Source: Mesoterricola sediminis
GTDB lineage: Bacteria > Acidobacteriota > Holophagae > Holophagales > Holophagaceae
Reading direction: 5' to 3'
DNA length: 64,000 bases
NCBI RefSeq assembly: GCF_030295425.1
Contig: NZ_AP027081.1
Span: 1,364,001 to 1,428,000, forward strand
A program made the position numbers and the translations under genes. Shown here piece by piece: positions 30,717 to 34,789 of the stretch. Positions within the stretch are counted from its first letter, which is position 1. Each line of letters begins with the position of its first letter. The notes beneath the pieces were generated by a model that saw only the letters and a program-made list of their open reading frames with translations, searched no databases and was not told the DNA's origin.

Positions 30717-30755
30717 GGAGGGTTGGGTGAGCGGTTTAAACCAACAGTCTTGAAA
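30717..30755 (+). pseudogene. tRNA-Ser(TGA), 5' half, cut in the anticodon loop by the island
   Basis: GGAGGGT (acceptor, 30717-30723), a D-arm GGT...ACC, and the 5' anticodon stem plus loop ending at the core ACAGTCTTGAAA (30744-30755). After 30755 the sequence stops matching a tRNA. Joined to 34732-34781 it gives an 89-base tRNA-Ser with a perfect 7-pair acceptor stem, a perfect anticodon stem (ACAGT/ACTGT), a long variable arm and encoded CCA. Alone it cannot make a tRNA. Confidence 0.88.
30744..30755 (+). repeat. Attachment-site core, left copy (attL-side)
   Basis: The 12-mer ACAGTCTTGAAA occurs here and at 34720-34731 in the same orientation. It covers the 5' anticodon stem and the loop of tRNA-Ser(TGA). 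Direct repetition at both ends of the foreign stretch is what site-specific tyrosine-integrase insertion leaves. Confidence 0.8.
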
Positions 30756-30936: not shown

Positions 30937-31641
30937 TCATTCCCCTGGCTCCACTAGGAAACGCCGTGCCCGTGCGGCTTCCAGAGCTTCGGCAATGTCG
31001 ATCTTGCCCTCCGCACGATCGGCAGCGCGTCGCCGTTCCCAGTCCTCATCCCATTCCCGCCGCAGTGCCTGTGCTTCGGGAACCGGGTCCGCCAGGTCCA
31101 AGGGCGTCATGTTGTAGTCCCCGCCGCCGTATGGCTTGCGGGCGGCCCAGACCTGGTCCACGTGAGCCCAGGCGATCGGCCCCGGGTGCCAGGCCTCAAC
31201 CCAGGGGATCCATTTGAACCCGTGGTAGACGAGCGGGTTGTTCAAGGTGGCTTCGGTGCCCTGGATCACCAGCTTGGTGGGGTCCAGGTGCCCAACGGGG
31301 ACCCGAAGCCAGATGGTGATGCACTGGCGGTTTTCGTTGAGGAAGCCGGCCCAGCCCATCTTGGCCGCGCGGTAGACTTCGCGCTCCGAAGGTGTGTCGA
31401 AGTCGAACAGGGGCACGGCGCCAAGACGGTGTGCCTGGCAGTCGGTCACGCAGGACTTCTCCGTTCCTTCACCTGCCGGGCGGATCTCCCCGGCCCTCAC
31501 GATGCCCTGGAGGCCTTCGACGGTGCACCTGTGCCAGAGGCAGCCGTGTCCCCGCAGGGTGGGCATGAGGTTTCCGACCCACTGCCGCCCCGTCTCTTCC
31601 CATTCCCGGTATTGGTCTTCGATCGGCAATGCCTCCTCCAA
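30937..31641 (-). CDS. Unknown protein, possibly ADP-ribosyltransferase-like
   Basis: 234 residues. I recognise no family with certainty. The first half reads LWHRCTVEGLQGIVRAGEIRP, an H-x-T...G-I/L-x-x-I-x-x-G-x-I pattern seen at the start of DarT- and PARP-like toxin folds, followed by VPLFDFDTPSE. Later comes WVEAWHPGPIAWAHVDQVW, whose E-x-W-x-P-G-P-I is often the C-terminal strand of such folds. The C-terminal 50 residues are a charged helix (EWDEDWERRRAADRAEGK). It starts 21 bases after the stop of the AAA-ATPase gene, so the two are probably one operon. Its composition is closer to the host than that of the ATPase. Could be a toxin or effector; function unproven. Confidence 0.55.
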   Translation of the reverse strand: MEEALPIEDQYREWEETGRQWVGNLMPTLRGHGCLWHRCTVEGLQGIVRAGEIRPAGEGTEKSCVTDCQAHRLGAVPLFDFDTPSEREVYRAAKMGWAGFLNENRQCITIWLRVPVGHLDPTKLVIQGTEATLNNPLVYHGFKWIPWVEAWHPGPIAWAHVDQVWAARKPYGGGDYNMTPLDLADPVPEAQALRREWDEDWERRRAADRAEGKIDIAEALEAARARRFLVEPGE

Positions 31642-31662: not shown

Positions 31663-33243
31663 TCAGAAGATGCAAGATTCCAGCTCTGCAAAAACTGTCA
31701 TTTCGGGCGTAATCACTTTGGCCAACTCCTGCTTAAATTTCTCAGCATTGATGCTGCTGACTATCCCGCAATAATTTTTAATTCTTCCCGTTTCATCCTT
31801 TATGTTTTGGTTCTCAATATCCACAACGAAGCCATCATAGGACGCTTCGTCGAACGTAAGAGCGTTCAAATTACAATACTTTTTCAAGACTTCTTTATCA
31901 AAAAGGTAATTTTCAATTTCCCATCTGACAAAAACCCGATGATTTGAAGGATTGTTTTTTAAATACACATCTCTATCGTGTGCTGTCGTATTCTTTCCTG
32001 ATGCCATATCACGGTCTTTCAATACAAGGATATCAAGCCCGTCAAAGACTTTTGAAAGAATAGAAATTGCAATTTCACTTCTTTGGTCAAGTTCCGTGTT
32101 TCCACCGCTCGACACAAACAAAACATCAGGATATTTTTCAGAAAATATTCCATTGAGAACATTAGCATCAAACCCTCTTTCGGTCCCATCCCGTCTGGGC
32201 TGATCCCTTCCCTCGCAATAGATTATTTTCCTGGGACTTAGTAGGCCGGTCAAATCTTCTAGAGCAGTTTTGAAAATGCGTTGCCAATTTTTTCTGGTTG
32301 TTCTAATCGGTGTAATAGTATGTGAACCCGTGAAATAATCTTTTTCGGAAAAATCCAAAACCTGAACTTTCTCTTTTAATTCATCTTGTGCAGCCTTCAT
32401 AAAGCCTATACTATGCGTTGCAACCCATAGCTGACAGTTCTCCGGGATTAATTTCTCAATCTCAATTAATAATTTCTTCTGAACCGAAGTATTTAAATGC
32501 AGCTCTGGTTCATCGATACAAAATACCGTATTGTCATAATCGTTCTTCTTGATGATTATATCCAAAATAATATCTACGACTTCTTTTTCTCCTGCGGAAA
32601 GATTCGAATATGGGAAGTTAGTTGCATTTCCTTTTTCAAAATAAAATTCTCCTTTTCTATCCATTATGTTGCCGAGGCTTGAAATTTTTATGTCCAGGAT
32701 TTTTTCTAAAATTACATTAATAGAACCTATTAATTCAGCCCTGACCTGATTTCCGGTTTTATCGCCAGCTTCAAAGGCTGAGTAGGATGCACTCAGTAAT
32801 CTCTTGTAATTTGCGTCCAGTCTTCCATCAAGTGCAATACTGCTCAGAGGTTCGTCCCTTGTTTCAAAAATGGAAGCCATTGCACTTAATGTTTGGACAT
32901 TCAGTTTTGATGTAAATCTATAAGCCGTTCTAATATAAAAAGTTTTTCTGGAGCTTTGCGCATTTGGTGGATAGAATTCAATTAAAATTGAATTATTTCT
33001 ATTGTAAGTAGATGCTTTCTTTGTTTCATCAGTATAGAAAAATGCTTTGGAGTAGAATGAGGCATCTTCGCCCCCCCATGGCCTAAAGTCTTTTTGTTTT
33101 TCTTCAAACGCGTCAAAAACTGAACTCTTTCCGCATCCATTTGGCCCAACCATTACGATGATTTTTCTTGGCTCATCCCCAAGGTCGATCGTTAGGTCAT
33201 CAAATCTTTTGAAAGTCTTAAGTTGTATCTTCCTGACTCGCAT
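31663..33243 (-). CDS. AAA15-type ATPase with C-terminal TOPRIM/DUF4435-like region, candidate defence gene
   Basis: 526 residues. RIQLKTFKRFDDLTIDLGD and VMVGPNGCGKSSVFDAF are the RecF/OLD-type ABC ATPase opening with Walker A. NLSAGEKEVVDIILDI is the signature motif, TVFCIDEPELHLNTSVQ is Walker B, and LWVATHSIGFM is the H-loop. The C-terminal 190 residues start KIIYCEGRDQ (Glu), continue VLFVSSGGNTELD and ILVLKDRDMA (D-x-D), and then HRVFVRWEIENYLFDKEVL, as in TOPRIM nucleases of the DUF4435 kind. OLD and PARIS AriA/AriB anti-phage proteins have this plan, PARIS usually in two chains. AT-rich, Lys/Asn/Ile-rich codon use shows recent transfer. Probably transcribed from the region before 33243 and coupled to the 234-residue gene. 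Confidence 0.8.
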   Translation of the reverse strand: MRVRKIQLKTFKRFDDLTIDLGDEPRKIIVMVGPNGCGKSSVFDAFEEKQKDFRPWGGEDASFYSKAFFYTDETKKASTYNRNNSILIEFYPPNAQSSRKTFYIRTAYRFTSKLNVQTLSAMASIFETRDEPLSSIALDGRLDANYKRLLSASYSAFEAGDKTGNQVRAELIGSINVILEKILDIKISSLGNIMDRKGEFYFEKGNATNFPYSNLSAGEKEVVDIILDIIIKKNDYDNTVFCIDEPELHLNTSVQKKLLIEIEKLIPENCQLWVATHSIGFMKAAQDELKEKVQVLDFSEKDYFTGSHTITPIRTTRKNWQRIFKTALEDLTGLLSPRKIIYCEGRDQPRRDGTERGFDANVLNGIFSEKYPDVLFVSSGGNTELDQRSEIAISILSKVFDGLDILVLKDRDMASGKNTTAHDRDVYLKNNPSNHRVFVRWEIENYLFDKEVLKKYCNLNALTFDEASYDGFVVDIENQNIKDETGRIKNYCGIVSSINAEKFKQELAKVITPEMTVFAELESCIF

Positions 33244-33408
33244 TCAGCCTCCAAATTATCGAAAGGAAGTGGGCGGCCCCGCTGACATGGAAATTGCAAA
33301 AGGCTTCGCTGGTGGGGATGGTTAATCATACCCCGTGAAGCGCCCCGTGCCTGTTTTTCATCTGCAACCAACCAGGAACATTCCCAAAACAGCAACAAAA
33401 CAGCAACA

Positions 33409-33427
33409 TGTTGTCAATTTAACAACA
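33409..33427. promoter_or_regulatory. Inverted repeat TGTTGT-N7-ACAACA, candidate operator
   Basis: A perfect six-base dyad with a seven-base AT spacer stands between the divergent ATPase gene (start 33243) and the small gene at 33505, next to two AGCAAC direct repeats (33391, 33402). It could bind a repressor controlling the island. No regulator gene is visible in the island. Confidence 0.4.
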
Positions 33428-33504
33428 ATAATAATTTGAGTTATGCTATTGGCGGCCAAGCTACCGGATCTTACTTTTGGTTCATTCCTGGAAAGGACAA
33501 GCCC

Positions 33505-33897
33505 ATGGAGAACCTGCTAACCCTTCCGTCCACCCCCCACCCCGCCGATGCGAGGGCCACTGATGCGAGGGCCACCCTGCGGGCGATCGCCGGGACCTCA
33601 ACCAGGTTGGTTGCGCGGCTCGAACAAAACAGCCCTGCGATGCCTGAGCCGGTCCTGGAGGCCCTGGAAGACCTGAAGGCCGGCCTGAGCACCTTGCAGG
33701 GGGTGGAGGGGGCTCCAGAGGGCTCCGAGCCCAGCCGCATCGAATGGCTGGATGTCTGGGGGATTGGTCAGGGAGCGGCGGAGCTTGGCGGCCTTCTTGC
33801 CGAGGAACTCCGCACCAATGGCGTGGACACGTTCTCTCTTCTGGAGGCCGTCCCGACCCACGAGCCGGCCCTACGCCTTGGACCTGCTCTCAAGTGA
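33505..33897 (+). CDS. Small hypothetical protein of the island
   Basis: 130 residues, GC-rich, Ala/Leu/Glu-rich and helical: ADARATDARATLRAIAGTS, then EPVLEALEDLKAGLSTLQG and GAAELGGLLAEELRTNGVD. The ATG at 33505 has GAAAGGA upstream; the open frame from 33436 lies over an AT-rich regulatory stretch and is not preferred. No family is recognised. A neighbouring frame (about 33865-33975) reads LDLLSSDALDALESMQGAIA, similar in style to this protein's own EALEDLKAGL, so the gene may be frameshifted near 33870 and originally longer. It lies just before the integrase fragment, where an excisionase or antitoxin might be expected, but nothing in it shows that. Confidence 0.5.
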   Translation: MENLLTLPSTPHPADARATDARATLRAIAGTSTRLVARLEQNSPAMPEPVLEALEDLKAGLSTLQGVEGAPEGSEPSRIEWLDVWGIGQGAAELGGLLAEELRTNGVDTFSLLEAVPTHEPALRLGPALK

Positions 33898-33993
33898 TGC
33901 CCTGGACGCGCTGGAGTCCATGCAGGGCGCTATTGCCCGGATCCTGGGTAACGATCCCGCCCTCCGGCGGGTGAGGGCGGCATCCGGATCAAG

Positions 33994-34473
33994 ATGCCCA
34001 AGAACGCCTACAGCCGCAGGACGATCAACATTGACGAGGGCTTGTGCATCACGCTCCGCAACCATAGGCAGGCTCAGGAAGACCTTGCCCAGCAATTGGG
34101 GATCCTGTGCCCCGTGGACGGCCTTGTGTTCCCCATGATGATCTGGCGGTCCCGTGGCCGGCAGCCCATCAATCCCCAGGTCAAGGACGTTGACTTCACC
34201 CGGCCCTGGAACCCGGATTACCCCACCAAGGAATTCAGCCGGGAGGCTGCCCAGGCGGGGTTCCCGGGCCTCCGCTTCCACGATATGCGACACCCCCACG
34301 TCACGGCCCTGCTGACCGCCGGGGTTGCCCCTCACATCGTGGCGGCCCGGCTTGGCCACAGCACGCCGGTCATCACGATGATGATCTATGCCCACGTCCT
34401 GCCTCGCGGGGACGAGCAGGCTGCCAAGGTCATGGGGGAGATGATGCGGGCAGCCCTGGGGGCCGGGAGCTAA
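33994..34473 (+). pseudogene. Tyrosine-recombinase integrase, C-terminal part only
   Basis: 159 residues covering the last part of the catalytic domain. RFHDMRHPHVTALLTAGV carries the H-x-x-R-H box, AARLGHS the next His, and TMMIYAHVLPRGDEQAAK the nucleophile Tyr. The N-terminal SAM-like and core-binding domains and the first catalytic Arg, together about 200-250 residues of a normal integrase, are absent. The frame starts after a stop, and the sequence before it reads as a different gene. It lies next to the replacement tRNA and about 250 bases from the right att core, the usual place for int. Without its N-terminus the protein cannot recombine, so the island is probably fixed. Confidence 0.8.
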
Positions 34474-34514: not shown

Positions 34515-34604
34515 TGGCGGAGGGTGAGGGATTCGAACCCTCGGAGGACTTGCATCCTCAATGGTTTTCAAGACCAGCCCGATAAACCGCTCCGGCAACC
34601 CTCC
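34515..34604 (-). tRNA. tRNA-Ser(TGA), complete, carried inside the island
   Basis: Read on the minus strand, the 90-base gene has a perfect acceptor stem (GGAGGGT/ACCCTCC), D-stem CCG/CGG, anticodon loop CTTGAAA with TGA at 34568-34570, a long variable arm (GAGGA/TCCTC), T-arm GAGGG/CCCTC with TTCGAAT, and encoded CCA. The bottom pair of the anticodon stem is a C/T mismatch. Its D-arm and variable arm differ from those of the interrupted host gene, so it is not a simple duplicate. It reads UCA and, with wobble, other UCN codons. Confidence 0.93.
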
Positions 34605-34719: not shown

Positions 34720-34781
34720 ACAGTCTTGAAAACTGTCGACGCCTCCGGCGTCCGCGAGTTCGAATCTCGCACCCTCCGCCA
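34720..34781 (+). pseudogene. tRNA-Ser(TGA), 3' half with right attachment core
   Basis: Begins with the shared core ACAGTCTTGAAA (34720-34731) and continues ACTGT (3' anticodon stem), variable arm GACGCC/GGCGTC, T-arm GCGAG/CTCGC with TTCGAAT, acceptor strand ACCCTCC and CCA ending at 34781. Everything before 34720 lacks tRNA character. The host terminator follows at 34790, which shows that this end kept the original downstream context. Confidence 0.88.
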
Positions 34782-34789
34782 GACGCCCG

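Follow-up and report, generated by a model that had tools for sequence, protein, structure and literature searches.

PARIS defense combines an ABC ATPase, AriA, with a TOPRIM nuclease, AriB; in the current view, the ATPase forms a cage in which a separate tRNA nuclease is kept until its release. The functional hallmarks of PARIS are activation by Ocr or other anti-restriction proteins, tRNA cleavage, and the holding of AriB by an ATPase hexamer. AriB cleaves tRNA through a two-metal TOPRIM site (PMC12409363), and PARIS, which is linked to restriction or BREX loci, also occurs in the form of single-gene fusions (PMC9122126). The fused protein, AriAB, has approximately 694 residues (PADLOC PDLC02981). 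On a plasmid of Oceanisphaera (L159, 1093-2972), a two-gene PARIS consisting of an ATPase and a DUF4435 protein was observed in this study within a BREX locus, where it is flanked by pglX and pglZ. The class 1 OLD proteins, including P2 Old and Thermus OLD (PDB accession number 6P74), likewise carry an ABC ATPase followed by a TOPRIM domain in one chain, which is encoded by a stand-alone gene. Two questions raised in the OLD literature are whether single-gene ABC-TOPRIM proteins can defend alone and whether the PARIS fusions constitute a separate OLD class (PMC10568477). The PtuA ATPase of Septu and retrons is partnered by the HNH protein PtuB and, in retrons, also by a reverse transcriptase. 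In PrrC and RloC, an ABC ATPase and a HEPN-type RNase are joined in one chain, and the gene for PrrC lies within an operon of a type I restriction system.

In this study, we describe a gene of Mesoterricola sediminis that lies in a window of 64,000 nucleotides (the whole stretch analyzed; contig NZ_AP027081.1, positions 1,364,001 to 1,428,000) and encodes a single-chain protein of this general type. PARIS-type defense is known; what is new is a compact, separate single-chain branch of that kind. A single-chain form whose nuclease tail is shortened, and which occurs both in type I restriction operons and in prophages, would reveal whether the nuclease has to be released and what regions of AriB determine the choice of tRNA, and the clade of approximately 530 residues bears on both questions from the OLD literature, i.e., defense by an ABC-TOPRIM protein alone and the class status of the PARIS fusions.

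Gene organization and conserved motifs

The gene is read from the minus strand, which the original prediction had not specified, and its ATG is preceded by a ribosome-binding site (TTTGGAGGCTGA-ATG); the plus strand of 31663-33243 contains many stops. An open frame of at least 400 codons arose in none of 2,000 base shuffles of this interval, and the same residues are kept in relatives at 29-53% identity, which together indicate that the long reading frame is not due to chance. The Walker A, signature, Walker B, and H-loop motifs, the E...D-x-D region, and the ENYL block, which the original prediction had placed in one chain, were all located by residue (Table 1). In the conservation test, which comprised 11 columns of an alignment of 15 sequences, K39, E219, E245, H277, E344, G345, D359, D410, D412, E444, and K482 were invariant in 15 of 15. 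The prediction had been staked on the conservation of its acidic residues, and E344, D410, D412, and E444 are all among these invariant positions.

Table 1. Features of the ABC-TOPRIM gene and of the surrounding island (positions in the window)
Feature	Positions	Strand	Remarks
Single-chain ABC-ATPase + TOPRIM gene	31663..33243	minus (33243->31663)	526-codon ATG ORF, 526 aa
ABC ATPase domain (predicted)	32314..33243	minus	about residues 1-310; PF13304 8.5e-20
Walker A GPNGCGKS	33124..33147	minus	residues 33-40
ABC signature LSAGEK	32584..32601	minus	residues 215-220
Walker B FCIDE	32509..32523	minus	residues 241-245
H-loop THS	32410..32418	minus	residues 276-278
AriB/DUF4435-like TOPRIM domain (predicted)	31666..32292	minus	residues 318-526; model pLDDT 84, pTM 0.82
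TOPRIM CEG, predicted catalytic glutamate E344	32209..32217	minus	residues 343-345; E344 invariant, 15 sequences
TOPRIM DRD, D410 + D412	32008..32016	minus	residues 410-412; aspartates invariant, 15 sequences
ENYL block, E444	31903..31914	minus	residues 444-447; E444 invariant, n = 15; block shared with AriB
5' half of split tRNA-Ser(TGA), island left end	30717..30755	plus	
Core repeat + 3' half of split tRNA-Ser(TGA), island right end	34720..34788	plus	
Intact tRNA-Ser(TGA) inside island	34515..34604	minus	
Tyrosine integrase C-terminal remnant	33994..34473	plus	PF00589 2.2e-8, phrog_1 9.2e-18
234-aa ORF	30937..31641	minus	starts 21 bp downstream of nuclease gene; GC-rich

ATPase domain

Judged from its sequence, the N-terminal domain is an OLD/SMC-type ABC ATPase, and the intact Walker A, signature, Walker B, and H-loop that characterize this component of PARIS are present in the 526-residue protein. 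The Pfam matches are AAA_21 (8.5e-20), AAA_15 (1.4e-18), and SMC_N (1.6e-11). The original description of the protein as an AAA15 ATPase fused to a TOPRIM/DUF4435-like nuclease therefore needs rewording in its first part, which is loose because AAA_21 is the best match, whereas the fusion of an ABC ATPase to an AriB-like TOPRIM domain is supported by both profile and fold. In structural matching, the nearest solved folds are PtuA from Septu and retrons (Z-score up to 20.1), the SMC and Rad50 heads, and AriA (8v46_B, Z-score = 15.9), with a range of 15.9 to 20.1 against the PtuA, SMC, and AriA ATPases.

Although PtuA provides the closest solved ATPase domains (Z-score 17-20), its nuclease partner is a separate HNH protein, whereas the nuclease of the present protein is a TOPRIM domain in the same chain. 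A type I retron or Septu system was rejected, as neither a PtuB HNH protein nor a reverse transcriptase is found in the island, where the neighbors of the gene are the 234-aa ORF and the integrase remnant. Gabija was likewise rejected, as no GajB UvrD-like helicase is present in the island. The protein resembles PrrC and RloC in that an ABC ATPase and a nuclease share one chain, but membership of that group is ruled out by the C-terminal domain, which is of the TOPRIM type and not a HEPN-type RNase.

TOPRIM domain

When the fold search was carried out with the full-length protein, ATPase matches filled the list, and the C-terminal domain (209 residues) was therefore modeled on its own from ten family sequences. 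The structural aligner placed AriB on top (8ux9_A, Z-score = 10.9, RMSD = 4.1, 170 residues; 8v46_D, Z-score = 10.0, RMSD = 4.4, 172 residues), and below it came the C-terminal regions of OLD proteins (Z-score of 7.8 or less), retron Eco8 (7.0), GajA (7.0), and the TOPRIM domain of RNase M5 (4.4). Foldseek ranked the OLD TOPRIM domains ahead and AriB after them. By the structural aligner, the model depicts a TOPRIM fold that is closest to AriB and nearer to AriB than to the class 1 OLD proteins. A non-nuclease fold at the C-terminus, which would have spoken against the original prediction, did not appear, and the comparison with AriA/AriB and OLD structures that had been proposed with it favored AriB in the structural aligner and OLD in Foldseek.

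Profile comparison by hhalign with the C-termini of AriB and fused AriAB gave a match of 98.5% (E = 2.1e-15) in which EG, DRD, and IENYL are aligned, and E. coli AriB shows the matching pattern VEG, CDRE, and LENY in the alignment with the PDB sequence. This match depends on the use of a profile, because just 33% was reached with one AriB-like sequence taken from a BREX locus. P2 Old, which served as the control, gave no match, and this is weak evidence since P2 Old entered the comparison as one sequence and not as a profile.

Among the PADLOC families, AriAB ranked first (6.7e-29, 99 bits), ahead of the OLD, GajA, and retron models; a true fusion scores 668 bits with the AriAB model, and this model may differ from the fusion profiles of PMC9122126. 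Detection in that study was based on PF14491 at its gathering score for the two-gene systems and, for fusions, on 80 bits for AAA_15+DUF4435 and 20 bits for AAA_21+DUF4435. An HMM search with PF13304 and PF14491 had been suggested at the outset, and the former family was recovered with high significance (Table 1), but PF14491 (DUF4435) gave no match in the 526-residue protein up to E = 1; in the relative L108 it is weak (0.0042, 17.3 bits versus the gathering score of 27). Because PF14491 stays below its gathering score, the protein was not filed as a member of PARIS. The gathering score is, however, a poor criterion for fusions, since the accepted AriAB fusion L115 itself scores 26.9 bits, just below 27.

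The present protein shares with PARIS an ABC ATPase and an AriB-type TOPRIM domain with E, DxD, and ENY motifs, and single-chain versions and links to restriction or BREX are known for PARIS as well; the differences are in length (approximately 530 versus 694 residues) and in the tail past the TOPRIM core, which is shorter here. The catalytic glutamate is followed by 182 residues, compared with approximately 253 in AriAB L115 and approximately 290 in E. coli AriB, so that the region of AriB that holds R236 would be at least partly missing. R236 of AriB has been modeled as touching the tRNA D-loop (PMC12409363). No evident counterparts of K60, K64, and R236 of E. coli AriB were found by alignment, in which divergence is high.

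Distribution and neighborhoods of relatives

In the tree, the proteins of approximately 530 residues and the 694-residue AriAB fusions form separate clades (100/100 each), but the branches are long and the node that joins the two has weak support (70/80). Two further proteins, a DUF4435 protein from Campylobacter and an ATPase from Gloeobacter, served purely as comparison rows. The most accurate label would be a PARIS-like, AriB-type single-chain ABC-TOPRIM clade, the members of which would work like PARIS or like a class 1 OLD protein.

The clade of approximately 530 residues is rare and scattered, with full-length or near full-length members in 3 of 396, 2 of 398, and 2 of 359 genomes in the three phylum samples. 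Relatives are carried by two other genomes of the host phylum (L002/L183 and L003/L184), and single-genome relatives came from the samples for two other phyla (G801; G1134 and the broken copy G1109). Full-length relatives also occur in viral contigs (L104-L111), on a Zymomonas plasmid (L013), and in a Dehalococcoidia genome (L025). A scan of genome contigs with the single protein returned no relatives, whereas a scan with the alignment returned two. The gene is absent from all five congeners searched, and the phage collection returned no match. The Phascolarctobacterium relative (L024, 8001-9598) is frameshifted, and the G1109 copy (G1109:C1:600766-602370) contains two in-frame stops; breakage of this kind may happen with costly defense genes.

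Some relatives are found in or beside type I restriction genes, with the gene orders hsdM-hsdS-gene-hsdR (L183), hsdS-gene-(two genes)-hsdR (L025), and hsdS-hsdR-gene (L184), and Eco57I-type restriction or methylase genes lie near the L024 and L104 copies. By inspection, no recognized restriction gene adjoins the G801, G1134, and G1109 copies. The island described here contains no restriction gene, and the single HSDR_N match in the host genome is 2.3 Mb from the nuclease gene. Among the loci observed, restriction linkage of the family is recurrent and not universal. Phage genes surround L105, L107, L108, and L111 (portal and tail genes of Mu type, a Mu transposase together with a repressor, and others), and the L106 and L110 copies adjoin integrases. 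An all-against-all comparison of 14 neighborhoods revealed no partner gene common to the family; the gene thus works alone, as far as neighborhoods can tell. In the phage contig L104 (6443-10627), a close relative has a Schlafen/AlbA_2 protein on one side and a trypsin-like protease on the other, and this group is possibly a small defense cluster.

Proposed function

We consider it probable (approximately 0.6) that the gene product is a self-contained single-chain PARIS-like abortive-infection protein composed of an ATPase sensor and an AriB-like nuclease, with tRNA as the most likely substrate. We infer that this protein acts against phage, responds to a restriction-linked trigger, has RNA and not DNA as its substrate, and is activated within or between same-chain copies. 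If PARIS is a guide (PMC9122126, PMC12409363), the ATPase subunits, once bound to ATP, would form an assembly that keeps the TOPRIM domain inactive until a phage product has been detected. The OLD-type ABC ATPase would detect infection, probably via a phage product that attacks restriction, and would then release or activate its own C-terminal AriB-like two-metal TOPRIM nuclease. As the nuclease is tethered in one chain and cannot leave as AriB does, activation would take place through movement or dimerization inside the assembly. The TOPRIM domain would then cut a growth-essential nucleic acid, most likely tRNA, and the infected cell would stop before phage release.

With regard to the substrate, the AriB-like fold favors tRNA, while the short tail and the apparent lack of counterparts of K60 and K64 would allow a DNA nuclease. 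The protein could then resemble a class 1 OLD protein, i.e., a mobile-element ABC-TOPRIM chain that degrades phage DNA or, like P2 Old, kills repair-inhibited cells. The one-chain domain order is identical to that of OLD, the gene stands alone and is carried by prophages, the related TOPRIM domains of OLD and GajA cut DNA, and the OLD TOPRIM domains are the next structural matches (Z-score 7.8) and come first in Foldseek alone. We nevertheless regard DNA cleavage of this type as possible but unlikely, because AriB lies 3 Z units above OLD, the PADLOC AriAB model outranks the OLD, GajA, and retron models, the ENYL block is as in AriB, and P2 Old, as a single sequence, has no profile match.

Apart from the PARIS-like defense that we favor, the same kind of protein might have a role other than anti-phage defense, either as a module that provides islands and plasmids with stability or plasmid exclusion or as a housekeeping OLD-type ATPase. 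Its occurrence on plasmids, islands, and prophages would fit such a role, and an archaeal OLD-family ATPase acts in the cell cycle (PMC12796447). This is made improbable by the repeated nesting of the gene inside type I restriction operons, and its absence from the five congeners argues that it is not a housekeeping gene.

Genomic island and tRNA-Ser(TGA)

The gene had been assigned to a tRNA island, and the island is indeed bracketed by a 12-bp direct repeat, ACAGTCTTGAAA, which forms its two ends at 30744-30755 and 34720-34731. The repeat corresponds to the anticodon stem-loop of a split tRNA-Ser(TGA), the joined halves of which (30717-30755 and 34720-34788) score as an 89-nt tRNA-Ser(TGA). 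A whole-genome pattern search returned no tRNA-Ser(TGA) candidate besides the intact copy at 34515-34604. The island appears to have broken one tRNA-Ser(TGA) gene and to hold the sole intact copy found in the genome, so that loss of the island would be costly. It has been described that genomic islands can rebuild the tRNA gene that they split from sequence that they carry (PMC4383910), whereas here the split gene is unrestored and a separate full tRNA gene lies inside. Further short repeats (GTCCAATCC.ATCC and A.ACGGGTTACA-like) are present within both island ends and may be integrase arm sites.

In a search for the empty site in congeners, three of them (L154, L155, and L156) were found to carry a minus-strand (in window orientation) tRNA-Ser(TGA) beside the same AMP-ligase gene, so that the minus-strand copy of the island may be foreign or may be the old native gene, in which case it would be older than the island itself. 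The tRNA-Ser(TGA) sequences of these three species are only 64-76% alike, except for two that are identical, and those of the host family are mostly 64-91% alike, too divergent to decide the origin of the island copy.

The nuclease gene has a GC content of 37.5% (GC3 of 35%), compared with 65% for the integrase remnant and the 234-aa ORF, and such an AT-rich gene in an island of approximately 65% GC points to a separate arrival from elsewhere. The original prediction had speculated that the nuclease and the tRNA of the island are functionally linked. We rejected this link as the default, since the island splits tRNA-Ser(UGA) and carries an intact one, so that its insertion best explains the tRNA beside the nuclease, since the AT-rich gene would be a later arrival, and since relatives occur without tRNAs: in a scan of 13 other family loci, only one had a tRNA nearby (L110, a tRNA-His adjoining an integrase). 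It would be far-fetched to propose that the clade is a compact tRNA nuclease guarding type I restriction with a tRNA specificity other than that of AriB, and that the island tRNA-Ser(UGA) is cleavage-resistant and protects the host while other tRNAs are attacked by the nuclease.

The integrase remnant keeps HxxR...H...Y and has lost the first-Arg region. Across 33436-34473 the integrase is degraded: the match is confined to its C-terminal third, and the coding sequence upstream is interrupted by a stop and by apparent shifts of frame; the island is thus probably fixed in place. That the nuclease gene is itself a non-functional remnant in a decaying island, as the truncated integrase and the two broken relatives (frameshift in L024, two stops in G1109) might suggest, is very improbable, as this copy is full-length and retains all of the catalytic residues and the ribosome-binding site.

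The 234-aa ORF has no match in Pfam, NCBIfam, or PADLOC. One distant relative (186 aa, 37%) was found in L153 beside a 238-aa ORF, and the product may function as an enzyme or toxin domain. The AT-rich stretch 33370-33440, in the intergenic space that separates the nuclease gene from the integrase remnant, contains repeated ACAGCAACA and TGTTG/CAACA inverted elements, and may be a regulatory site.
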